Part shown: positions 1 to 20,987 of the stretch, in pieces
Layout of the letters: the number at the start of each line of letters is the position of its first letter
Position numbering within the stretch: position 1 is the stretch's first letter
Source of the DNA: a virus
IMG/VR virus record: IMGVR_UViG_3300045431_000194
Coordinates: 1 to 20,995 of that record
DNA: 20,995 nucleotides
Strand: one strand, 5' to 3'
Notes under the pieces: model-generated
The model's input: the letters and a program-made list of their open reading frames with translations, nothing else
Told to the model about the DNA's origin: nothing
Databases searched by the model: none
Made by a program: the position numbers and the translations under genes

Positions 1-117
1 GACGCGGGCCTGATCGGGGGTGGGGGTGTGCCCCGGCCGGGCGAAGTGAGTCTGGCGCACCGGGGGCTGCTGTTCCTGAAAAGTTATCTGGACATAGTGC
101 GGGTTATCCACAGGTAG
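1..117 (+). pseudogene. comM: ComM/YifB (Mg-chelatase-like AAA+ ATPase), fragment broken by prophage insertion
   Basis: Frame 1 is open from the window edge to a TAG at 115-117. Residues 1-26 (bases 1-78) contain AGLIGGGG and [15 protein letters not shown]. These match the well-known ComM/YifB signature that reads GLIGGG, then PGEISLAH, then GVLFLDELPEF, the last part being the Walker B strand. The match stops exactly after LLFL. The expected Asp-Glu is replaced by [12 protein letters not shown] and a stop. ComM is a hexameric branch-migration helicase that helps integrate transforming DNA in naturally competent bacteria. The N-terminal part must lie left of the window and the C-terminal part beyond the right end of the prophage. 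A truncated product lacking the Walker B acidic residues should have no ATPase activity. The family match is made by eye from memory, but the motif is long and specific. Confidence 0.88.
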
Positions 118-3411: not shown

Positions 3412-4968
3412 TTACCACCCCCGCGCAGTCAGCGCGTCACGAATATGCCCAGCCACGAGTGCGTACCCTGCCGAGTTGAGATGGATGTCATCCACCCGGT
3501 ACGCGGCGTCTACCACGTCGGTAAGCGGGTCTTTTGGCAGGAGTTTCTGGATGTCCACCACGTTGTTACTCAGGCGCATCATGTTGCGGTTGATGGTCAT
3601 CATGGTCTGGTAATCCGTGTTTGGGGCGTCGTTTGCCCTGCGCCCTGGGTAGTTCCCGTTCAGCATGGTCAGGATCAGGTACCGCGTTTTCATGGCCTCC
3701 AGCGTGCGGATGATTGCCAGGATGTCGCGCTGGATGTTGGCATCCTCGGCGTAGTTGTTGTTCCCAATCCAGATGATGGCAACCCGCTCCTTCAGCGCAC
3801 TGGTGTCCGGGATGATCTGCACGCGGGCGGGCACCGTCACGGCGCTGCCTGCTGTCGCCCTCGTGAACGTGTATGCGCCTGCGAACACGCCTGTTCCTGC
3901 GCCGCGCGTCAGGGTGCCGCGCACGCCGTACAGCGTCACGGCCATGCTCGCGCCTGCGCCTGTGCGGAGTAGGTCAACGTCATACACGGTTACGCCGACA
4001 CTCCCGCTAGCCGGGATGGTGTTGCCCGCCACGCTGAGGTACGTGGTGGACGCGCCGAACCGCGCGGCGATCTCGGTACTCGTCTGCCCGCCCAGCCCGT
4101 AATTCGCCACGTCCCGCCCGGTCAGCCCAGCCAGTGCCGTGGTGTACGGTGTTTGCCCCACCCCGTGCGTGAGGCTATCCCCGATACCCACGAGGTCCGG
4201 CCCGCTGACCGCCTGCACGCCGTCAATGCGGTTCCGGCTGGCGGCGTAGGTGATGCCCTGCACGCTGTTCGGGCTGACAATTCCAGCCGGAGCGACGAGC
4301 CGCCCGTCCGTTGCCAGGGCCAGGGCCACGCGCCCCCCAGTGTCTGCCAGGATGGGCACGGCCTCCACGCCTGAGACGTAGCCCCGCTGGCTGCTGTCCA
4401 CAGCCAGCCCACTGGTCGAGAGGGTGGTGATCGTTGCAGCAGCCAGAGTCAGAGCTTTTATCACAGCGAGATTATCGGTCACTAACCCGCCGTCCAGATG
4501 CCACTTTGCGGCAGTGTCCATCCACATCATCGGGCGGTCATCCTGCCCGAGCCACGCAAACGCGGCCTGGACGCCATTGATGTAGGTGCCAGCGGGGAGC
4601 ACGGCCGGGCGCAGCGGAGTAAGCTGCGTGAGTTTCGCCGCGACCTGTTGATCATTGGCCTGTTGCCGCTGGTCGTTCGCCGCCTGTTGCTGGGCAATAT
4701 CGGCCAGTGCGGTGTCCACCTCGGCGCGGCCCCAGTCGACCTTCGTGAGGGTGTAGTTGCTGAGCGTCCCAGGTGTGCCGTACCCGGGCTCGCCGTCCAC
4801 GCGGTAGGTGACCCGCTGGTCCCGCGCGGTGACGAGGGTGCCCACGACGGTATGGCCGGGGTAGTAGGTGCGCAGCCAGTCCAGCATGGCCGGGATGTCG
4901 GCGTACAGGGCCACGCTGGGCGATTTGCGGTCAACAGGCACGACGCCTGCGGGGGGACTCCATGCCAT
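3412..4968 (-). CDS. Tail fibre/receptor-binding protein with SGNH (GDSL) hydrolase domain
   Basis: 518 residues from ATG 4968, one base after the preceding stop, with GGGAG upstream. Residues 1-90 form a virion-attachment region. Residues 90-112 are a Gln/Asn/Ala-rich coiled-coil-like stretch (QQQAANDQRQQANDQQ). Residues about 125-235 are a linker or neck region. The C-terminal half is an SGNH hydrolase. Block I is GIGDSLTHG with the nucleophile Ser265, block II is NYGLGGQTS (289-297), block III is WIGNNNY (400-406), and block V is DDIHLNSAGY with Asp493 and His496. A beta-rich insert of about 75 residues (311-385) separates blocks II and III and may bind carbohydrate. The enzyme probably deacetylates surface polysaccharide during adsorption. 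The catalytic residues are all present. Confidence 0.87.
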   Translation of the reverse strand: MAWSPPAGVVPVDRKSPSVALYADIPAMLDWLRTYYPGHTVVGTLVTARDQRVTYRVDGEPGYGTPGTLSNYTLTKVDWGRAEVDTALADIAQQQAANDQRQQANDQQVAAKLTQLTPLRPAVLPAGTYINGVQAAFAWLGQDDRPMMWMDTAAKWHLDGGLVTDNLAVIKALTLAAATITTLSTSGLAVDSSQRGYVSGVEAVPILADTGGRVALALATDGRLVAPAGIVSPNSVQGITYAASRNRIDGVQAVSGPDLVGIGDSLTHGVGQTPYTTALAGLTGRDVANYGLGGQTSTEIAARFGASTTYLSVAGNTIPASGSVGVTVYDVDLLRTGAGASMAVTLYGVRGTLTRGAGTGVFAGAYTFTRATAGSAVTVPARVQIIPDTSALKERVAIIWIGNNNYAEDANIQRDILAIIRTLEAMKTRYLILTMLNGNYPGRRANDAPNTDYQTMMTINRNMMRLSNNVVDIQKLLPKDPLTDVVDAAYRVDDIHLNSAGYALVAGHIRDALTARGW

Positions 4969-6918: not shown

Positions 6919-9900
6919 TTAGGGCGTGAGAATCGAGAGGAGTGCGGGCGGGGCGCCGCCCCCGCCGGTGTTGCTGCTGGGCTCGGTGCGGATCAGGAAA
7001 CCCTGCGTGACGAGTGTCTGCACGTACCCACCGAACCGATCCACGTGCCCGCCGAAGCGCGCTTCCCACTCCGGGGCGGCCATGACGGTGACCTGGGATG
7101 TCGGGATCTGCACGACGTTGTTCCCGCTGGCGGTGGCCGGAGTAGTCGTGCTGGGCGCGGCTGGGGCTGGCGTGAGGGAGGCGCTGCCCTGCTTGTACTT
7201 GTCCCGCGTGATGTCCACGAGGCCGAAGGTGATGTTCTTCAGCAACTGGGCCAGCGCGTCGTACACCGCCACCAGCACCCGCATCAGCGGCGTGAGCACC
7301 GCGGCGAGCAGCTGCAGGTTCGGCACCATCAACGCCCCGACGAGTTCACCGAACAGCCGCAGCGGTTCCTGCAGGGCCTTCAGCGGCTCGGCGATCACGC
7401 TCAGCAGGCCTTCGAAGATCGTGCCGACGATGTTCAGTTTCTCCAGCACGAACGCGAGGTACGTGGCGGGGTTCGCCAGCGCCCCAATCGCCTCGACGGT
7501 GTTCAGGATCGTGCCCGCCGCCTTGTCGCTCGCCTCGGTCTTGCCCTTCTCGAACCGGCCCGAGACGTTCGTGCCGTTCAGTTCCAGCGCGGCCCGCTTG
7601 GCGGCTTCCTCAGCGGCCTTCTTGTCGGCCTCGGCCTGATCCTTCTTGAGCCGGGTGATCTCGGCCACCAGCACCGCGTACTTCTCCATCTGGCCCAGCT
7701 GTAGGGCCTGAGCCTTGAGGCTTTCCAGGTCGGCAACGGTCTTGCCGTCCAAGGTGCGGCGGTACTCCTCTTGCGCCTGAGCCGCGTACTCCTGAGCCTC
7801 GGTGCGGGTGCGCCACGCCTCGGCCTCAGCCGTGAGCGCGCCACGCGCCTGGTCCGCCTGCATGACGGTGGTGTTCACCGTGCCACGCGCTGCCACAGGA
7901 CCGTCAGGGGCAGCCGTGCCGCGTGTGCGCAGGGCGTCCACTGGCCCCAGCGCGGTAGCCGTGGCGCGAGCCTGCACCTCAAGCCCTTTCAGGCCTGCCA
8001 GGAAGTTCTGGGCCGCCACAGCCGCGTCATCCGTCCCCTCGGCGTACTCGGTCGCCAGCGCGATCAGGCCGTCGAGTGGGCGGTCCAGCAGGATCAGCTC
8101 GCGCTGCATGCCCGCGAAATCGGGCACCGCCCGGTCCGCCTCCTCCTGGCGCTTCTTGATCAGTGCGATGCGGTCGTTGCTCTGCTGTTCGTAACTGGCG
8201 TTGATCGCGTCGTTCAGCCGCACCTCCTCAGCAGCAGCGGCGCGGCGTTGCTCAAGGTTCGCGGCCCAGACCCGCTCAATGATCGCAGCGGCAGCCGGGG
8301 CGAACCGCTTCGCCTCGTCGAGCGCCCCAGTCACGTCCGCCCGGATCTGCGCGATGGTGCGGCCCGTGACGGCGGCGAGGCTACGGATCAGGCCCTCATC
8401 CCCCACGCCGAACGACTGCCGGAAAGCGGCATCAGCCGCACCCTGGGGGTCACGCTGGTACGCACTGTTCGCCGCGGCGATCTGCGCGTCGTTCAGTTCG
8501 GAGAGGGCCTGAGTGGTGGCATCGGCAGCAGCCTTCGCAGCTTCCAGGCGGGCCTTCTGTTCGGCCAGCACGGCGTTGAACTTCTGGCCGTCCCCAGCCG
8601 CGTAGGCGTTCGCCTTGGCCGCGTTCAGCTGGGCATCCGTGTAGCCGGTCAGGCCCTTGGTGTACGCCTCGAAGCTCAGCCCGTCCGTGATGGCCTTGCG
8701 GGCGCTGGCGAGCTGGTCCGCCTGAGCCTTGGTGGCCGCCGTGGCCTTCTCGGTGGCAGCGGTGGCCGCCTGTTCCCGGCGTTCCAGTTCGGTCTTGATG
8801 GCGCTGTACTTGTCAGCCTCGCCTGCCGCGCGTGCCGTGGCTTGGGCGGTCTTGAGCTGGGCGGTCGTGGCGTTCTGAAGGCTGTCCACCCAGGCGTCCA
8901 TCTTGATCGACTTCTCAAGCTCCGCGCGGGCCTTCTGGGCCTCAGTGATCACGCCCGTCGCCATGTCCTTGGCGGCCTTCTGGACGGCTGGCGTCTTGGC
9001 CGTGATCCCGTTCGTCAGGCCATCAGCGGTGTGCTCGCCGAGGATGTACATCTCTTTCGACGGGCTCTGAATCTTGAGCTTACTGCGGATGCCGTCGATG
9101 ATCCCGCCAGCCATGTTCCGGGCCGCCTGCACAACCTGCCCCGCCCCGTTCTCGATACCCCGGATGAGGCCGCGCAGGATGTCCGCTGCCGCGCCTGCCA
9201 TCTGGGGCGCGAGGTTGCGGATCAGGCCGAGCATCGTCGAGGCCATGTTCCGGACCTGGCGCACCACGAAGGTCACGCCGTCCTCAAAGATGCCCTGGAC
9301 GGCCTTCACGGCTCCGCCCAGGTCGCCGCGCAGCAGCGCGCTGACGGCGTTCACCACGCCAGTCACGACGCGCACGACGAGGTTCAGGGTGTTCCCGATG
9401 GTGGCAACCGTCCCCGCGATGAGCGGCGCGATGGCCGTCAGCACGGGCCGCAGCACCGTCTCCCAGAGCTGCTTGACCAGACCGAACACACTGGCGAACA
9501 GCGGCCCAATCGCCTGCAGCACGGGGCGGAACGTCACGAGGGCCCGTTCGATCTGCGGGCCGAACTGGTCCGCGAACTGCTGCCCAGCGGCGCGGCCCTG
9601 CCTGAAGCCGTCGACGAGGAACTTGACCACCTGCGTGACCACGGGGGTCACCTGACTCAGCGCCGCTTTGACCGCTGGCATGGCCTCGTTCGCCAGTCCC
9701 AAGAGTTCCTTGCCGACGGGGAGCAATGCCACCTGCACCTGCCGCCACACGCCCTGGAACACGTCCCGGAAAGAGTTGTAGCGGGTGTTCACGGCATCGA
9801 CACCACCGGCCAGATCCTTCATCGAGGTCTTCGTGAGGTCCAGCTGCGTCAGACCGTTGGCGAAGTCCTCGCCCGCCCCACCGAAGATGGCGGCGCCGAT

Positions 9901-10920
9901 GCGGGTGCGGTCCGCCTGACCCTTCACCTCGGCGAGCTTGTTCGTGACGAGTTCGAACGCCTGCGCCTGCGTGATGCTGCCGTCGTTGATGCCCTTGACG
10001 AGCTTCTCCTGGTTCAGGCCCAGTTCCTTGTACACGCCCGCGCTGTCCTCGCTGACATCGACGATGGTCAGGCCGAACTCTTTGAAGGCATCGGCGATCT
10101 TGTCAGTACCCAGCGCACCCTTGGCGGCGCCGGTTTCCAAGAGCGAGAACAACTGCCCGCCGCCGATCTTGGCCTTCTCGAACTGGGGCGCGTACTCGGT
10201 CAGCGTGTCGAGGAAATCGCCGGACGAGTTCAGGCCCTTCTGGAAGCCACGCGCGATGAAGTCGGTGGCTTCGGCGGCGCTCATGCCGGTGGCCTTCATC
10301 AGCGAGGACACGGCGGCTGCCACGCGGGCATTCTCCTCACCGAACGTCTCGGCGATGCCCACGACGGCGCCGGTCACCTGGCGCAGGTCCCCCTCGGCGA
10401 GTCCCTTGATCTCGCGGCGCACATCGGTCACAGCCGCTGCCGCCTCAGTGAGCGACCCAGTCCAGTTGTCCCCGAACACCTGCTCGGCGATACCCCCGAG
10501 ACGTTCGGCCTCTTCGCGAGTCGCGCCCAGCTGCGCCTGGAACTCGTTCACGTTCTGCGCGCTCTCGGCGGCCATGTTCGTCACGGCCACCACGCCAGCC
10601 ACCGCAGCAGCACCCACGGCCACGGCAGCCGCCGCGGCCATAGCGGGTAGGGCAGCGAGCGCCCCCTGGAACGCCCCGGCGAGCTTGCCCCCGGCCTTCC
10701 CGCCGCCGTCCTCAGCAGCGCGCTCGGCATCCTGCATGCCGTCCTGAACTGCCCGGGCGGCGTCCTGCGCGCCCTGCTCGGCACCCTCGACCAGCCCGCC
10801 GCCGAACCCTGCGCCGCTGCGCTGCCCGGCCCGCTCGGCGTCCTGTTGGATCTGGCGGAAGCTGCGCTCGTCGAGACGTGCGACGACATCGACGATCAGG
10901 GTGTCATTGCCTTGCGTCAT
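6919..10920 (-). CDS. Tape measure protein
   Basis: 1333 residues from ATG 10920, overlapping the end of the tail chaperone frame by 17 bases. It sets tail length and is ejected with the DNA. The N-terminal 85 residues are Gln/Glu/Ala/Gly-rich helix. Residues 87-116 are a strongly hydrophobic Ala/Val stretch. Residues about 125-380 carry the usual tape-measure core (GNDTLIVDVV near the start, GINDGSITQAQAFELV, IGAAIFGGAGEDFANGL). A hydrophobic central region and the MYILGEHTADGL segment, common in such proteins, follow. Three roughly 50-residue repeats lie at about 675-725, 750-800 and 1057-1105. At about 0.15 nm per residue the protein predicts a tail near 200 nm. No lytic domain is seen. 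Confidence 0.95.
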   Translation of the reverse strand: MTQGNDTLIVDVVARLDERSFRQIQQDAERAGQRSGAGFGGGLVEGAEQGAQDAARAVQDGMQDAERAAEDGGGKAGGKLAGAFQGALAALPAMAAAAAVAVGAAAVAGVVAVTNMAAESAQNVNEFQAQLGATREEAERLGGIAEQVFGDNWTGSLTEAAAAVTDVRREIKGLAEGDLRQVTGAVVGIAETFGEENARVAAAVSSLMKATGMSAAEATDFIARGFQKGLNSSGDFLDTLTEYAPQFEKAKIGGGQLFSLLETGAAKGALGTDKIADAFKEFGLTIVDVSEDSAGVYKELGLNQEKLVKGINDGSITQAQAFELVTNKLAEVKGQADRTRIGAAIFGGAGEDFANGLTQLDLTKTSMKDLAGGVDAVNTRYNSFRDVFQGVWRQVQVALLPVGKELLGLANEAMPAVKAALSQVTPVVTQVVKFLVDGFRQGRAAGQQFADQFGPQIERALVTFRPVLQAIGPLFASVFGLVKQLWETVLRPVLTAIAPLIAGTVATIGNTLNLVVRVVTGVVNAVSALLRGDLGGAVKAVQGIFEDGVTFVVRQVRNMASTMLGLIRNLAPQMAGAAADILRGLIRGIENGAGQVVQAARNMAGGIIDGIRSKLKIQSPSKEMYILGEHTADGLTNGITAKTPAVQKAAKDMATGVITEAQKARAELEKSIKMDAWVDSLQNATTAQLKTAQATARAAGEADKYSAIKTELERREQAATAATEKATAATKAQADQLASARKAITDGLSFEAYTKGLTGYTDAQLNAAKANAYAAGDGQKFNAVLAEQKARLEAAKAAADATTQALSELNDAQIAAANSAYQRDPQGAADAAFRQSFGVGDEGLIRSLAAVTGRTIAQIRADVTGALDEAKRFAPAAAAIIERVWAANLEQRRAAAAEEVRLNDAINASYEQQSNDRIALIKKRQEEADRAVPDFAGMQRELILLDRPLDGLIALATEYAEGTDDAAVAAQNFLAGLKGLEVQARATATALGPVDALRTRGTAAPDGPVAARGTVNTTVMQADQARGALTAEAEAWRTRTEAQEYAAQAQEEYRRTLDGKTVADLESLKAQALQLGQMEKYAVLVAEITRLKKDQAEADKKAAEEAAKRAALELNGTNVSGRFEKGKTEASDKAAGTILNTVEAIGALANPATYLAFVLEKLNIVGTIFEGLLSVIAEPLKALQEPLRLFGELVGALMVPNLQLLAAVLTPLMRVLVAVYDALAQLLKNITFGLVDITRDKYKQGSASLTPAPAAPSTTTPATASGNNVVQIPTSQVTVMAAPEWEARFGGHVDRFGGYVQTLVTQGFLIRTEPSSNTGGGGAPPALLSILTP

Positions 10921-11709: not shown

Positions 11710-11947
11710 CGGTGATCTCCAGTTCCTCGTAAATGAACCGCGCGTGCCCTGGCGTGCCGATTGCTTCGGCGGGCAGTTGCACGGTGGTCTCGTGTTGCCC
11801 GTCAGCGCTGCGGAGCGTGACGGTTCTGGCCTGCTGTCCCGCCTGCACGAGCAGCAGCCCAACGCGCAGGCGCGCACCGTGCTGGTACGCGCCGTACGCG
11901 ATGACCGCCGCCGAACCGCCTCGGGTCTCGGTGGCAGTCAGGTGCAT
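11702..11947 (-). CDS. Small protein between tail tube and chaperone, unknown function
   Basis: 81 residues from ATG 11947, sharing one base with the stop of the tail tube gene (TGATG). It is strand-rich (LRVGLLLVQAGQQ, RTVTLRSADGQHETTVQLP) and ends acidic (FIYEELEITDD). It has no membrane segment and no cysteine. It is not recognised as a known family. A conserved position between tail tube and chaperones suggests an accessory tail-assembly protein. The reading frame is real, judging from its one-base coupling upstream and eight-base overlap downstream. Confidence 0.75.
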   Translation of the reverse strand: MHLTATETRGGSAAVIAYGAYQHGARLRVGLLLVQAGQQARTVTLRSADGQHETTVQLPAEAIGTPGHARFIYEELEITDD

Positions 11948-12462
11948 CAGCTGGCGGCGGTGGCGGCGCTCGTGTCGACCCAGCGCTTGCCGCGCCCGGT
12001 GCCGGAGAAGGTGAACGTCTCGGCGGCATCGGCAGGTACGGGGAACCCGCCGGCGGTGATGAACATGGCCCCGCCGCGCGCGACGGTCTCGCCGTTCGGC
12101 ACGACTTCAACCCAGATGGTCTTGCGCTGGCTGGCCGCCAGTTCCAGGGCTTCCATGCTGGCGCGGTCGGTATCGACGGGCTGCACGTTCCCGCTGAAGG
12201 TCACGGTCCAGCTGGCCTGCCCGGGTTCACTGTCGGCCCAGTCCTCACCGGTGCCGGGGGCCGCGCTGCCGTACATGACGACGGGGGTCTCGCTGACCGT
12301 GGCGATGCTGAGGGGAATGTCACTGGTGGTGACCTCGGGAAGGCTGAGGGCGGTCGTGGCGAAGTTCGCAGGGCGCTTGTAGTTGCCCTGCGCGTCCTTG
12401 GTGAGGTCGGTCATGACCATGAAGCGGAGGGTGGAACCGCGGCCTTTGATGGTGCTGAGCAT
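11947..12462 (-). CDS. Major tail (tube) protein
   Basis: 171 residues from ATG 12462, with TAAGGAGTCACC directly upstream. The protein forms the hexameric rings of the tail tube. It starts LSTIKGRGSTLRFMV and contains SWTVTFSGNVQPVDTDRASMEALELAASQRK, cited here in parts: the WTVTFSGN strand, then the DRASMEALELAA helix, then KTIWVEVVP. This strand-helix-strand order is typical of siphophage tube proteins. The later GGAMFITAGGFPV and ETFTFSGTGRGKRW segments supply the remaining strands. The gene sits between the tail terminator and the chaperones, where the tube gene is expected. No extra Ig-like domain is appended. Confidence 0.87.
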   Translation of the reverse strand: MLSTIKGRGSTLRFMVMTDLTKDAQGNYKRPANFATTALSLPEVTTSDIPLSIATVSETPVVMYGSAAPGTGEDWADSEPGQASWTVTFSGNVQPVDTDRASMEALELAASQRKTIWVEVVPNGETVARGGAMFITAGGFPVPADAAETFTFSGTGRGKRWVDTSAATAAS

Positions 12463-14555: not shown

Positions 14556-15845
14556 TTAGGCGGGGGCGTTCTTGATGAAGCTCAGGCGGTCGTAGATCAC
14601 CAGCGCCAGGCGCTCCTCGGCGAGGATCGTGACCATGTTCTTCACGAAGTCGTCCTCGTTCTGGTTCGCCACGGTGATGTTCGCCTGACGGCGGTCGAAC
14701 AGCTGCGCGCCGCGGCGGAAGTCACCGGCGAGCCACTCACCCTTGGCCAGTTTGGTGCTGTCGCGCACGGGCTTGGCCATGATGCGGGGGTTGCCGTTGC
14801 CGTCCAGCACATTCAGCCAGATGTAGTTGTTGTCCGTGCCTTTGAGCAGCATGATCGTTTCCCAGTCCTCGGGGTTGAGGACGTACCCGGTCAGGGTGCG
14901 GTTCACGAGGCGCAGCTGCGTCTGCGCGCGGATCAGGACGTCCAGCATGGTGCCGGTGGCGGCGCGGTTGTACGCGGTGGCGACGGTGTACAGGCCCAGC
15001 AGGTTCTGGCCAGTGCCGTCCCCCTTGAGGATCTGAGCGTCTTCCACGTCGCGCAGGCCGTCGATCAGCTGCGCATCGATGTAGCTGCGCAGGGCGGGCT
15101 CGTCTTCGAGGATCTCGTCACTGGCCTTGATGTAGTGCGCGATCTTCTTGACTTCGGTGGTGACCATCTCGAAGGCGAAGTCACTCTGGGGCTTCGCGGC
15201 ACCCTCGGCCACCATGGCGGCGTTCTTCGCGTCGGCGCTGAGCTTGCGCTGGGGGAACTTCAGGCTGCGGGCACTGGTCTCGCCGCTGGGCAGCAGGTCA
15301 CGGATGTGCGGCTCGGTGGGCGTGTCCTGCATGGGGAGGCGCTGCGTTTCCAGCAGGCTGCCCACGCTGCCGACAGCACCGGTCAGGGCCTTCTGCTCGA
15401 CGCTCAGGCTGAAGCGGTTGCCGCTCACGTGCCGGAAGTTTTTGAACTCCTCGGCGCCAGTGAACAGCTCGCCGCTGCTCTTGCGCTCGCCCTGGCGGCC
15501 ACCGCCCAGGTCGAGACGGCCCATCTTGGTCTCGAGTTCCTTCATGGCGCCCTTGAGCTCCTGGCTCAGGGTGGTGTGCTCGCCTTCCAGGCGCTTGATT
15601 TCCTTGTCCACGTCGGGCACGCTGCCCAGCCCGTCGGCCTTGATCTTCTCCAGGCGGGCGTCGATCTTGGCGCTCAGCTTGGTTTCGATCTTGCCGATGG
15701 CTTCCATGACGGCGCTGGGGTCGTCGTCCTTGTACAGGGTGGCGGGGCCGCCGAACATCTTGCCGCTGCGGGCGGGACCGGAGAAAGCGTCACCGATGGC
15801 GAGACCCAGGGCGAGAGCGGCGGTGGTCAGGTGGGGTTTGGTCAT
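14556..15845 (-). CDS. Major capsid protein, HK97 family, with N-terminal scaffolding (delta) domain
   Basis: 429 residues from ATG 15845, one base after the protease stop. Residues 1-35 are hydrophobic and Gly-rich. Residues about 43-110 are a long charged coiled coil (VMEAIGKIETKLSAKIDARL, EIKRLEGEHTTLSQELKGAM), the delta domain that acts as internal scaffold in phages without a separate scaffold gene. The protease should cut in the polar linker about 111-145. The mature part shows HK97 features: LLETQRLPMQDT, LKFPQRKLSADAKNAAMVAEG, FEMVTTEVKKIAHYIKASDEIL, YIDAQLIDGLRDVEDAQIL and GDGTGQNLLGL. The final AEERLALVIYDRLSFIKN is typical. No separate scaffold gene lies nearby, which agrees with a fused delta domain. 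Confidence 0.95.
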   Translation of the reverse strand: MTKPHLTTAALALGLAIGDAFSGPARSGKMFGGPATLYKDDDPSAVMEAIGKIETKLSAKIDARLEKIKADGLGSVPDVDKEIKRLEGEHTTLSQELKGAMKELETKMGRLDLGGGRQGERKSSGELFTGAEEFKNFRHVSGNRFSLSVEQKALTGAVGSVGSLLETQRLPMQDTPTEPHIRDLLPSGETSARSLKFPQRKLSADAKNAAMVAEGAAKPQSDFAFEMVTTEVKKIAHYIKASDEILEDEPALRSYIDAQLIDGLRDVEDAQILKGDGTGQNLLGLYTVATAYNRAATGTMLDVLIRAQTQLRLVNRTLTGYVLNPEDWETIMLLKGTDNNYIWLNVLDGNGNPRIMAKPVRDSTKLAKGEWLAGDFRRGAQLFDRRQANITVANQNEDDFVKNMVTILAEERLALVIYDRLSFIKNAPA

Positions 15846-15846
15846 G

Positions 15847-16701
15847 TCAGTTCCCTCCGAGGGAAGCGCCGAACGCGCGCAGGTCAGCCAGGAGGCTGCC
15901 CGTCTTCACTTCGGCATCGAGTTGGCTGGCTTTCTGGTGCAGGGCGGACAGCAGGCTGGAGTGCTCGCGCGGCTCCCGACTGGTCTTGGACTCCCCAGTG
16001 GCGCCGTCCGCCGCATCGGAAGTGCCGGTGGCGGCTTCCTCTTCGGTGTCGAGTCCGGCTGCGGAGACAAGGTCTTGCAGTTCGTTGAGGGCCGTGAGGA
16101 TCTTCTTCGCGTTCGCCGCGGAGAGGACCCGCCCGGCCTTCGTGCTGAGGTTCACTTCGGTGATGGCGTGCCAGCGCTTGATCTCGCGCGCCAGGTCGTC
16201 ACCGCTCTTGATGCCGGTGATGATGGCGCCCTCGTTCGCTGGGAAGGGCACGAAGCTGTACTCGTAGAGTTTCAGTTCGGTGATGACGCGGTAGATGCCG
16301 GTCGTGCGGTAGTCCTCGGGGTACTCGGCCTTGATGGCGCTGTAGCCGATGCTCATGCTGTCCAGCGCACCCTCCTGCGCCAGCGTGTAGATGTCCTGCC
16401 CCATCTGGGTCTGGCTCATCTTCGTGCTGGTCAGCAGGCCGTACCCGTCTTCAGTCATGCTGACGGGCTTGCCGACGGGCAGGTGCTGCCACGTGTCGTG
16501 GTTGTAGAGCACCTTGACCTTGTCCTTGCGCTCGCTGACGGTCTTGATGAACGCACCCTTCTGGATGACGTCCCCGTAACTGTCGGTGTTGCCGAACGCG
16601 GCGGCGTACGCGGTCACGATCCCCTCGCCTTCGGCCTTCACTTCAACGGTGAAGTTCTTAGTCTCAGGCGCGGCGCTGGGCTTCTCGTTCGTCTTGGTCA
16701 T
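15847..16701 (-). CDS. Prohead protease, HK97 gp4-like (S78 family)
   Basis: 284 residues from ATG 16701. This serine protease matures the prohead by removing the capsid delta domain and itself. The core is residues 15-165: GIVTAYAAAFGNTDSYGDVI, then VLYNHDTWQHLPVG with catalytic His68, then ALDSMSIGYSAI with nucleophile Ser117, then LKLYEYSFVPFPAN, where the acidic member of the triad is expected. The C-terminal 120 residues are helical and polar (LTALNELQDLVSAAG, TGTSDAADGATG). They are the sort of tail that could interact with the capsid and be cut away. It lies between the portal-side genes and the capsid gene, in the usual order. Confidence 0.93.
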   Translation of the reverse strand: MTKTNEKPSAAPETKNFTVEVKAEGEGIVTAYAAAFGNTDSYGDVIQKGAFIKTVSERKDKVKVLYNHDTWQHLPVGKPVSMTEDGYGLLTSTKMSQTQMGQDIYTLAQEGALDSMSIGYSAIKAEYPEDYRTTGIYRVITELKLYEYSFVPFPANEGAIITGIKSGDDLAREIKRWHAITEVNLSTKAGRVLSAANAKKILTALNELQDLVSAAGLDTEEEAATGTSDAADGATGESKTSREPREHSSLLSALHQKASQLDAEVKTGSLLADLRAFGASLGGN

Positions 16702-16716
16702 GCTGGTTCACCTCCT

Positions 16717-16896
16717 TCACTTGTTTTGAGTTGGGAAGTCGTACGTGACGCGCACGAGGATGGGCTGCCCAGTTTCAGGACAGGTCGCCCAGTGCGTGAT
16801 GTCAGGGGGTGGGTTCAGGAGGGGCGTGAGTCGCAGGTCGTAGTGGGCGAACCCGCAGCGAGCGCAGGTGCTCACGTCGGTCGTGATCTCATCCAC
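16717..16896 (-). CDS. Tiny Cys/His protein, possible zinc-binding knuckle
   Basis: 59 residues if started at GTG 16896, five bases after the G run of AAGAAGGGGGG; an alternative GTG at 16902 overlaps the portal stop. The sequence holds Cys11-x2-Cys14 (TCARCGFAHYD) and His35-x3-Cys39 (HWATCPETGQ), a spacing able to hold one zinc ion. The end, LVRVTYDFPTQNK, is a strand. It is in a tight series between portal and protease genes. No family is recognised and a function cannot be given; similar small proteins often sit here in phages with a MuF-type portal neighbour. Confidence 0.65.
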   Translation of the reverse strand: MDEITTDVSTCARCGFAHYDLRLTPLLNPPPDITHWATCPETGQPILVRVTYDFPTQNK

Positions 16897-16898
16897 GT

Positions 16899-18911
16899 TC
16901 ACCCCCCTTCTTCGTAGAGCGTCACGCAGCGGCAATTGACGCCCGCCGGTGCCGACTGGGCACCGTTGCTGAAGGCCGCGTCGAGTGCGACCTGCTCACC
17001 ATTCATGGCGGCGTGCTCGTCACGGGTGCGGCTGTCGTTCGTGGCGAGCCAGACTTTCACGAGCTGCACGTCGTGCGTCTCGGCGATCTGCTCGGCACTG
17101 GCCTGATGCGCCTGCCCGAACGCCGCCCCGACTTCAGTGCGGGCGATGGTGTTCGCCCGGTAGTCGCTCCAGTCCTCGTGCAGGCTTCGCAGTCGCTTGG
17201 CGATGTCGCGCTGGGATTCCCCGGCTTCCACGCCCTGCTTGATCTGGGCGGCCACCGCCACGCGGCTGGTCTCGTCGATGCCTTTGACCATCGTGCCGAC
17301 GTGATCGTCGATCCACGCCACGACGTTGTCCGCCAGGACGTCGAACGTCCCACCCCCGCCCGCTGCGGTCGTGGCGGCGAGCAGCGCCGTGTACGCCACT
17401 GCTCCCTCGGCTTCTATGACAGCGGTGTGGATGGCGCGCAGCAGGGCGTCCCAGTCATCCAGGCTCAGCGCCTGCTCCCAGGGTTTCCCGTTGGCGTACG
17501 CGGCGGCGATGGCGTTGCCCTGGTCGATCAGCAGCGCGGCCACGCGGCCCCGGATCTCCGCGCTCCACTCATCCATGCGGGCGAGCTGCGCGGCCACCGG
17601 GTCACCCTTGTCCTTGCGCTCGAACCTGGGGGGCGCGGCCCTCGCCTTCGTGGCCGGACTGGGCAGTTGCGCGGCGGGCGCTGAGGCGCGCGGCACGTCC
17701 CCGCCCGGGATGTCCGTGAGCGGCAGCTGCGCGGTCTGGGCCGCCATGTTGGCCGGCACGCCCGCGTTCACCATCGCGGCGAACGCTTCGGCCCTGAGCT
17801 TGCCCACCTCGGCTTCCGTCTTGAGGTTGGCCTGCAGGGCCCGCACGCCGCTCAGGTCGGGGCGGATGCGGTACTGGTCCTCAGTGAAGTTCCAGAAGGG
17901 GAACAGCGCCCCCATGTAGCCCTGACACAGGTCATCCAGCAAGGGCACGACCCGGTCTTCCCAGAGGGCCGTCTTCGCTGCGTCGAGGTTGGCGTACGTG
18001 GCCGCGTCACCGAAGCTGAGCAGGATGGGCGGCACGCCGAACACGGCGGCGATCTCCTCTCTTGAAAACCGGCGGCCATTCAAGAAGTCGAGGTCGGACG
18101 CTGACAGGCTGAGGGGCTGGACCTTCGACGCGCCGCCCATGACCAGGGCCTTGCGAATGCTGCCCCCGTCAATCTGCTCACGCATGAACCCAGCTGCTTC
18201 CCGCATCTGCGCGAGCGTCAACCCGTCATTCAGGAAGATTGCCAGGGGCGGCTTGCCGTCGTTCCGGAGCACGGCGCGGTTCCAGCTGGCCGCCGCCTGG
18301 TCCATGTCCACGGCACTGGCTGCCGCTTGCAGGGGCGAGAGGCCCCAGCGGGGGTTGGTGGGGTCCGGGAACATCCAGTGGGCCACCTCAGCCACCGGTA
18401 ACAGCCGCTTGGTGCTGCTGTCCACCTTCCATTCGTACCCGCTCACGTACTCCGCGCGGGACTGGACGGGCTTGATGGTGTCGGGGTGGATCGGCCAGAG
18501 TTCGACGGGCTTGCCGCCCACGATGTTCAGCCAGACGAGCGCATTCCCGGCCAGCATCATGTACTGACCCCAGCGTTCGTTCAGGTCCTGGCGGCCCATG
18601 AACGGATTCGGGCGGTTCAGCAGTGCCTGGATCTCGTGCCCCGGGTCAGGCTGCCACTGGTCACCCTGCCTGCGTTCCAGCACGAGCGGCACCGAGGCCA
18701 CCGCACCCGCCACCTTCCCGACAGCGCTGTACACCCACGGGTTGACCTTGAGCCCCTCGTCGACGGCCTTGTCCGCGTTCCAGGTGCTGCTGATCGCCCG
18801 GCCGTCCTGCCCCTGGCTGGCGAACACGCCCGCCTGACTGTTCCGCACGGTCGCCTCGCGTTTCGATTCGAACGGCCAGAGGGCCGCGCTGAGTCGCTGC
18901 ATCCAGTTCAT
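16899..18911 (-). CDS. Portal protein fused to MuF-like minor head protein
   Basis: 670 residues from ATG 18911, with GGGGGTGAGGA just upstream, 13 bases after the terminase stop. Residues 1-400 are an HK97-type portal: NPWVYSAVGKVAGAVASVPL near residue 60, then NRPNPFMGRQDL, VGGKPVELWPIHPD, RRFSREEIAAVFGVPPILL and WNFTEDQYRIRPDL. A Pro/Ala linker (about 400-430) follows. The C-terminal 230 residues have the MuF/SPP1 gp7 pattern: ANTIARTEVGAAFGQAH, VWLATNDSRTRDEHAAMNG and GVNCRCVTLYEE. MuF proteins are normally a separate gene. No internal stop or restart is visible. No toxin or protease extension follows the MuF part. The fusion would put about one minor head domain per portal subunit. Confidence 0.92.
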   Translation of the reverse strand: MNWMQRLSAALWPFESKREATVRNSQAGVFASQGQDGRAISSTWNADKAVDEGLKVNPWVYSAVGKVAGAVASVPLVLERRQGDQWQPDPGHEIQALLNRPNPFMGRQDLNERWGQYMMLAGNALVWLNIVGGKPVELWPIHPDTIKPVQSRAEYVSGYEWKVDSSTKRLLPVAEVAHWMFPDPTNPRWGLSPLQAAASAVDMDQAAASWNRAVLRNDGKPPLAIFLNDGLTLAQMREAAGFMREQIDGGSIRKALVMGGASKVQPLSLSASDLDFLNGRRFSREEIAAVFGVPPILLSFGDAATYANLDAAKTALWEDRVVPLLDDLCQGYMGALFPFWNFTEDQYRIRPDLSGVRALQANLKTEAEVGKLRAEAFAAMVNAGVPANMAAQTAQLPLTDIPGGDVPRASAPAAQLPSPATKARAAPPRFERKDKGDPVAAQLARMDEWSAEIRGRVAALLIDQGNAIAAAYANGKPWEQALSLDDWDALLRAIHTAVIEAEGAVAYTALLAATTAAGGGGTFDVLADNVVAWIDDHVGTMVKGIDETSRVAVAAQIKQGVEAGESQRDIAKRLRSLHEDWSDYRANTIARTEVGAAFGQAHQASAEQIAETHDVQLVKVWLATNDSRTRDEHAAMNGEQVALDAAFSNGAQSAPAGVNCRCVTLYEEGG

Positions 18912-18924
18912 TCCTCACCCCCTT

Positions 18925-20277
18925 TCAGATCAGCTCCATGAAGAAGCCCGCCGAGCGGCCGAACCCGTCCACGTACCGCACCGCGTACCGCAGCGTGTCC
19001 ATGCCGTCGTCCGCCACCTTCACGGGCGCTTCCTTGAGGATTTCGCCGCCGGGTTTCTTCGCCCAGACGTACCCGTCCACTTCATCCGTCGTCCGCACCG
19101 GCCCCAGCGCGAGCCCCGTCTGCTCATCGACGAGCGCCGGGTCCACTTCGACCAGGGCATCCGCGAAGATGAACAGCCGCGGCTTGATCTCCGGCTCATC
19201 CGGCTTGTCCGGGTCGAACTCGCGGCCCAGACGATCCTGCACAGCCTGGATGCCCACCTGTACGGCCTTGTCCGCTGCGGTGGTCTTGATGCCCAGTTCC
19301 TGCTCGAGCGTCGCGCGGTCCTCGGCGTCGTGGTCGGTCACCCACGCCTCGATGTCCTCTCCTTCGCTCAGCGCCCTGATCTGGGCCGCGTGGTCCCGGA
19401 CGGTGCGCTGCGTGCGGTAAATCTCCCGGTACAGGTACATGTCGTCGTCCGGGCTGATCGCCCACCACTGGCAGACGAACGGGTGGTTGAACCCGAAGTC
19501 GATGGACACGATGCGGCGCCAGCTGGCGGGAAGATCCCGGCGCGGGATGATGTGCCGGTCGGGGCGCCAGGTCGGGTAGACCATGCCCTCGGCTGCGGCC
19601 CACAGCCCATTCAGCAGGCGGTCACGGCGCGGCCCGGTCAGCTTGTTCAGGCGGTCGATGTACGTCCGCCCGAAGGCCGTCCAGGCGTTGGCCTGCGCGT
19701 CCCAGAGGCGCGGGTTGTCCCGGTGGCTGCACCCGATCCGGGTGGTGACCCCGGCGTCCATGCGCTTCTTCAGCCAGTGGCTGGGGAACGATGGGTTGCA
19801 GTCCCCGAGCAGCTGCTGGTACGGGATGACGCCGTTGCGCAGGCGGGTGCTGAGGAACTCCCAGTCACGCACGCTCAGCTCGGTGGCTTCCATGACGTAG
19901 ATCACGTCGAACTCGGCGGACATCAACTTCACGGGGTCATCCACCCCGGCGACGATGATCTCGCTGCCGTTCGGGTAGACGTACGACTGCCGGACGTTCC
20001 GCTGCTGGTTCGTCGTGTCGCAGGGCGGCTTCACGTGCTGCTCGAACGTGACCAGCCCGGTCTCGGTGAGGCTGCGGCGCTTCTTGCGGACGATCGCGAG
20101 GCGGCACCCGGCGTACTTCACGGCCAGGGCGTTCAGCTTCTCCAGACTGGCGCGGCTCTTGCCGGTGCCTGCGGGGCCGTCCAGCATGATCTCGTCCGCC
20201 TTGCACTTGAGGAGTTCCAGCGCGCTGCCGCGAGGCATGTACGTGATGGCGCCCGGGGGGAGCTGGGCGGCCGTCAC
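18925..20277 (-). CDS. terL: Terminase large subunit
   Basis: 450 residues from GTG 20277, overlapping the small-subunit stop (GTGA). It is the packaging motor and headful/cos nuclease. The ATPase has Walker A GPAGTGKS (34-41), Walker B DVIYVMEA with Glu130 (124-131) and the coupling GDCNP (158-162). The nuclease domain starts with VSIDFGFNHPFVCQW (Asp260), continues with WVTDHDAED (Asp315/Asp317), and has KAVQVGIQAVQDRL, common in RNase H-like terminase nucleases. The PRLFIFADAL and TLRYAVRYV segments near the C-terminus fit the family. All motifs are intact. Confidence 0.95.
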   Translation of the reverse strand: MTAAQLPPGAITYMPRGSALELLKCKADEIMLDGPAGTGKSRASLEKLNALAVKYAGCRLAIVRKKRRSLTETGLVTFEQHVKPPCDTTNQQRNVRQSYVYPNGSEIIVAGVDDPVKLMSAEFDVIYVMEATELSVRDWEFLSTRLRNGVIPYQQLLGDCNPSFPSHWLKKRMDAGVTTRIGCSHRDNPRLWDAQANAWTAFGRTYIDRLNKLTGPRRDRLLNGLWAAAEGMVYPTWRPDRHIIPRRDLPASWRRIVSIDFGFNHPFVCQWWAISPDDDMYLYREIYRTQRTVRDHAAQIRALSEGEDIEAWVTDHDAEDRATLEQELGIKTTAADKAVQVGIQAVQDRLGREFDPDKPDEPEIKPRLFIFADALVEVDPALVDEQTGLALGPVRTTDEVDGYVWAKKPGGEILKEAPVKVADDGMDTLRYAVRYVDGFGRSAGFFMELI

Positions 20278-20987
20278 AGGTCGCCCTCGCTGAGCCCGAC
20301 AATGTACTTGATGGGGCTGCCGTCCGGGTTCTGATGCACCTGGCGCTGACCGAACATGTCGTACACCTTGCCCAGCAGTTCCAGGGCCCGCGTGGGGTCC
20401 TTGATGCGGTACTCGATGCTGCCGTCCCGGTTCTTCTTCAGCACGGCCATGCCGCTGATCGCACCGGCGGCCTTGGCGGCGGCCCAGTCGATCTCGACGT
20501 CCTGGCTGATCGTGGCGACACGCACGAGCATCTCGCCGTCACCGGTGCGGCTGATCTGATCCTCGCCGAAGTGGCCGCACAGGTCGTACAGGTCCAGGTC
20601 GTCCACGTGGCAGCCCTTGCGCTTCGCCAGCTCGCGCACGGGCTCGTGCTCCCGGGCGGGCACCCAGAAGGTCCGCTCGGTCGGCGCGACGGTCACGAAC
20701 TGGTCCATGTCCACGACACTCCGGGCTTCCAGGGTGAGGCGGGCTGCCACCTCGCTGCGGCTCATGACGTCGTCCTGTTCCTCGAGGCGCGCGGCGATGT
20801 ACGCCTTCACGCCTGCGTGGCGCAGCAGGTCCCACCCGGTCCGGTGGTCACCGTACCCGGCTTCGCGGGCGGCGGCGCTGGCGTTGAGCCTGCAGCGGCC
20901 CAGGTACAGGTCCGCGAACTTCCGTTGCTTCCCGGTGAGGGGCGCGCCCAGCTCCTCGGCGGTGGGTTGCGTCTTGGCGTCGGTCAT
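20274..20987 (-). CDS. terS: Terminase small subunit
   Basis: 237 residues from ATG 20987, very near the right edge, so upstream elements are mostly cut off. The N-terminal helix-turn-helix region (about 17-65) has LTGKQRKFADLYL, LNASAAAREAGYGD and VKAYIAARLEE, the pattern of Terminase_2 small subunits that recognise the packaging site. The middle carries RSEVAARLTLEARSVVDMD and FGEDQISRTGDGEMLV. The C-terminus (LELLGKVYDMFGQRQVHQNP) is expected to contact the large subunit. It begins the visible operon. No cos or pac site can be recognised in the window. Confidence 0.88.
   Translation of the reverse strand: MTDAKTQPTAEELGAPLTGKQRKFADLYLGRCRLNASAAAREAGYGDHRTGWDLLRHAGVKAYIAARLEEQDDVMSRSEVAARLTLEARSVVDMDQFVTVAPTERTFWVPAREHEPVRELAKRKGCHVDDLDLYDLCGHFGEDQISRTGDGEMLVRVATISQDVEIDWAAAKAAGAISGMAVLKKNRDGSIEYRIKDPTRALELLGKVYDMFGQRQVHQNPDGSPIKYIVGLSEGDL

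Follow-up and report, generated by a model that had tools for sequence, protein, structure and literature searches.

The comM fragment and the late-gene block of the window

The stretch of DNA analysed here, called the window, is a linear virus record of 20,995 bp. At its left edge lies a fragment of a host comM/yifB gene (1–78, plus strand). These bases translate into 26 codons of ComM/YifB and end with G-L-L-F-L, directly before the Asp-Glu of the Walker B motif. The comM frame then reads through into the phage side (79–117, plus strand), with 12 foreign codons at 79–114 and a TAG stop codon at 115–117. The 38-aa product of 1–117 matches Pfam family PF01078 (E = 1.9e-8, 34.4 bits, with a cut-off of 20.3) and positions 278–309 of the 499 in TIGR00368, "YifB family Mg chelatase-like AAA ATPase" (E = 1.7e-9); these scores rule out chance as the source of the comM match. 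An intact yifB gene has 85% DNA identity to bases 32–77 of the window and then reads on G-V-L-F-L-D-E-L-P-E-F (L131); the window from base 79 reads AAAAGTTATC instead. The translation and the two family matches thus bear out a preliminary description of this DNA, according to which the frame at 1–78 is ComM/YifB up to LLFL and the catalytic Asp-Glu is replaced by 12 unrelated codons and TAG. The crossover must fall somewhere inside the codons for G-L-L-F-L in the Walker B stretch (64–78, plus strand), given the divergence from comM past base 78 and the complementary junctions found in relatives.

Beyond the comM piece, the window consists of one late-gene block of a tailed phage, and the recognised genes are all on the minus strand. 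In their order of reading, these encode the small terminase subunit (20274–20987; PF03592, E = 2.7e-14), the large terminase subunit (18925–20277; PF04466, E = 1.2e-8, with at most 46% identity to phage terminases by tblastn), a portal protein with a C-terminal Mu F-like domain (16899–18911; PF04860, E = 1.5e-59; PF04233, E = 1.3e-20), a prohead protease (15847–16701; PF04586, E = 4.8e-28), the major capsid protein (14556–15845; phrog_10, E = 2.5e-61), connectors, the major tail protein (11947–12462; phrog_1407, E = 2.1e-11), the tape measure protein (6919–10920; phrog_1272, E = 2.3e-43), a tail fibre protein with a GDSL-like hydrolase domain (3412–4968; phrog_11419, E = 4.4e-37; PF13472), an endolysin of the N-acetylmuramoyl-L-alanine amidase type (664–1281; PF01510, E = 1.1e-35), and a small protein. 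The last of these is the final phage gene before comM (198–575); it encodes 125 aa with no PHROG or Pfam match, and DNA similarity to a D. ficus plasmid extends over 206–628. The late operon is continuous from the small terminase at 20987 to the end of the small protein at 198. Given the minus-strand gene order terS, endolysin, small protein, the late operon points towards comM.

At its other end the contig stops 8 bp upstream of the small terminase start. Because it ends at terS, the integrase and the other half of comM are absent from it: no comM remainder was found within the 20,995 bp, PHROG and Pfam profiles found neither an integrase nor a large serine recombinase among the window genes, and no tns or Tsy genes (TnsF with YRec, or with TnsABC/TniQ) were seen in the window, the far, integrase end of the prophage lying outside the contig. 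The window also has no tRNA gene as a possible att site.

In a DNA similarity search, the window resembled plasmids of Deinococcus radiodurans, D. ficus and D. aetherius, and because of this similarity the host is probably a Deinococcus. The region 1360–2364 has ca. 66% DNA identity to a prophage region that lies outside comM, on a D. radiodurans plasmid (L065). By terminase, the nearest relative is a 4.1-kb contig (L003) with 91% DNA identity over 16280–19628. After this segment it diverges from the window inside terL, a sign of mosaic exchange; as a source of the prophage ends it was set aside, since it reaches neither end. A scan of genome contigs with TerL gave matches only to Lentzea and Chloroflexi contigs. 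The 173-aa protein encoded at 1278–1799 found no relatives as a query, and the DNA of 1–300 had no match among phage records.

Interrupted comM genes in other viral contigs

Scans of viral contigs with degenerate patterns of conserved comM DNA yielded many comM-bearing records, and in a large share of them comM is broken. The breaks recur at several conserved places: before [LI][VI]GGG, at Walker B, after AAMN, and at a few others. Four records (L084, L098, L106, L113) have the junction complementary to that of the window, with comM restarting at G-[VI]-L-[FL]-L-D-E. A fifth, the 11,728-bp contig L120, has both halves of comM flanking one insert, so that the comM remainder is present at the far end of the element. 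Its comM halves correspond to reference residues 255–301 at one end and 295–335 at the other, with the core GGTGT common to both. The complementary remainder and the two halves around one insert are thus seen in relatives, not in the window.

Large serine recombinases (Pfam Resolvase plus Recombinase) are encoded by L106, L113 and L120. Among the 37 loci judged to be broken in comM, 14 carry a large serine recombinase gene, mostly directly at the break; the recombinase was checked with Pfam for ten further loci. Tyrosine integrases at these loci were sought by a crude motif only, and absence from that list means little. The loci that combine a comM broken at one of several conserved motifs with a large serine recombinase are L068, L071, L080, L083, L089, L094, L095, L106, L110, L113, L119, L120, L123 and L129. 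Taken with the window, the collected proviruses show that the Walker B codons are used by elements of several lineages.

Near-identical copies of the window junction were sought by exact, 18-mer and degenerate searches, and none was found elsewhere. The exact junction CTGTTCCTGAAAAGTTATC is absent from the viral contigs searched. The 18-mer AGTTATCTGGACATAGTG matched once, within a gene on the contig of an unrelated phage, and this match was rejected as chance. A degenerate junction pattern had three matches, all outside comM.

The preliminary description also held that a prophage is joined to comM at Walker B. This stands, with phage late genes adjoining the fragment, complementary junctions in four relatives and both halves in a fifth. 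The left edge of the window is very probably one attachment junction, with 1–78 as the host side and the rest as the prophage side, formed when a tailed prophage integrated site-specifically into the Walker B codons of comM. An integrase encoded beyond the right end of the contig would have recombined attP with attB in these codons. An assembly chimera, in which a stray piece of comM was fused to the end of a phage, would look similar in some respects – the comM piece is only 78 bp, it lies at the extreme edge of the contig, and the evidence is one contig, with the right end that should carry the integrase and the comM remainder outside it. Such a chimera is nevertheless very unlikely, as the join coincides exactly with an established integration hot spot, in codons that also form the junctions of other elements (PMC10293859), and lies at the usual place, beside the lysis end of the late operon.

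Repeats near the junction and the class of recombinase

Two repeats lie close to the junction on the prophage side. The first, called by a repeat finder, is an inverted pair of GTTATCCACA at 103–112 and 120–129, which may be recombinase arm sites or DnaA-box-like sites. Three matches to GTTATCCACA were found at no more than one mismatch, a number reached in none of 100 shuffles. The pair at 103–129 contains the DnaA-box-like sequence TTATCCACA and sits 25 bp inside the prophage end. The second is a perfect 13-bp inverted repeat (135–172), also from the repeat finder, which stands between comM and the late operon and is a possible terminator closing that operon; no T-tract terminator was called there.

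The features around the crossover bear on the enzyme. Insertion by a tyrosine recombinase – an ordinary phage integrase, or one related to TnsF/YRec as in Tsy – rather than by a large serine integrase has somewhat less than an even chance. It concerns the enzyme only and is compatible with site-specific integration at the Walker B codons. Identity to comM extends to base 78, about 10 nt past GGTGT, the core of L120, which is a serine-integrase element, though similarity between the phage arm and the host arm could inflate the apparent length of the comM match. The inverted GTTATCCACA pair could be arm sites for a tyrosine recombinase. The end of ZooTsy that adjoins the 5' part of comM starts with AAGTT and the window has AAAAGTT, but five shared bases may be a coincidence. 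The comM breaks in the viral contigs, for their part, are associated with large serine recombinases. The GGTGT offset, the repeat pair and AAGTT lean slightly towards a tyrosine recombinase, and the abundance of serine integrases at comM favours the opposite.

Predicted loss of ComM function and comparison with known systems

Under integration at the Walker B codons, the interrupted comM would encode about 300 residues, then the 12 from the phage side, and would lack the Walker B acids. Because this frame is without the Walker B Asp-Glu and all that follows, the predicted product would be an inactive ATPase, and from the reading frame it can soundly be inferred that ComM function is lost while the prophage is integrated. 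If ComM matters for transformation in the host of the window, lysogens should recombine heterologous DNA less well.

The distances between contig ends and crossovers suggest that some of the sampled populations have both alleles. Both ends of L120 are exactly 127 nt from the crossovers – GGTGT ends at base 127, and there are 127 nt from GGTGT to the other end. The contigs L098, L106 and L113 end 123–124 nt past the GG of the same motif, or about 127 nt past the crossover. A k of 127 is usual for such assemblies, and a de Bruijn assembly at k=127 breaks at such a distance if an intact comM allele coexists with the inserted one. Intact comM thus seems to coexist with the inserted form in the samples of these four contigs. 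The window starts 77–78 nt before its divergence from comM, which would fit k=77, but this is only a hint because the assembler and k are not given for the window. Mixed alleles would be evidence that part of the population has an empty site, and not that excision is regulated. The distance from contig end to crossover may be a general way of spotting empty sites in metagenomes.

These observations bear on whether the prophage is a reversible competence switch (active lysogeny). In such a switch, the prophage would benefit from the lower transformation that insertion brings, and regulated excision would restore comM. In its favour, a helicase that acts in transformation loses its ATPase acids through the cut, and intact and inserted comM seem to coexist in the samples of the four contigs, with the k=77 fit of the window as a further hint. 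The effect of comM interruption has precedent in A. baumannii, where 22% of strains had an inactivated comM and where, for DNA that includes a non-homologous segment, transformation drops by two orders of magnitude when the gene is lost (PMC11472951). However, loss of comM there lowers transformation and does not abolish it (PMC11472951), the mixed alleles are equally well explained by uninfected cells, the k=77 fit is only a hint, and a literature search turned up no paper dedicated to ComM in the transformation of Deinococcus. A competence switch of this kind is very unlikely. It is likewise very unlikely that the probable Deinococcus prophage works as a reversible switch on ComM-dependent recombination, with regulated excision restoring ComM and shielding the prophage from curing by transformation.

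The choice of the Walker B codons as integration site is most likely explained by their strong conservation within a dispensable gene, a combination that would provide a stable anchor across hosts. A possible additional gain is that the prophage would be cured less often through transformation.

In Listeria, a prophage occupies the competence gene comK, and regulated excision (active lysogeny) is established for it. The window is similar in that a prophage lies in a competence gene, and regulated excision is the feature of comK. The AbaR islands of A. baumannii also interrupt comM, but they are resistance islands of transposon origin, not prophages, and it is for AbaR that the transformation effect was measured (PMC11472951).

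Closer precedents than AbaR or Listeria comK are the large serine integrase elements, for which magnesium chelatase/ATP-dependent protease genes are a leading attB, the sr1WO prophages, and Tn6022 and Tsy. Magnesium chelatase/protease genes are the target of 12.4% of predicted site-specific large serine integrases (PMC10083194). As in the window, these elements cut the same target gene family in its coding sequence, and L120, L106 and L113 are large serine integrase elements at the same Walker B codons as the window. The window differs from them in that its integrase lies outside the contig, so that the class is not assignable from the window, and in its probable Deinococcus host. The sr1WO prophages split the magnesium chelatase gene of Wolbachia (PMC9203015). 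Like the window they are prophages in this gene, with the parts of the gene lying either side of sr1WO, but their serine recombinase is known and their host is unrelated to that of the window. TnsF directs Tn6022 and Tsy to comM, at a conserved 10-bp region of Walker B; the authors suggested that the site is a conserved anchor and that insertion may limit transformation (PMC10293859). They share the Walker B region of comM with the window as a target; however, they are transposons without a virion gene set, whereas the window has phage genes. Given these three precedents (PMC10083194, PMC9203015, PMC10293859), integration at the Walker B codons of comM is ordinary, not exceptional, and the window is a real new example of a known habit, in which a probable Deinococcus phage joins the unrelated mobile elements that dock in comM.
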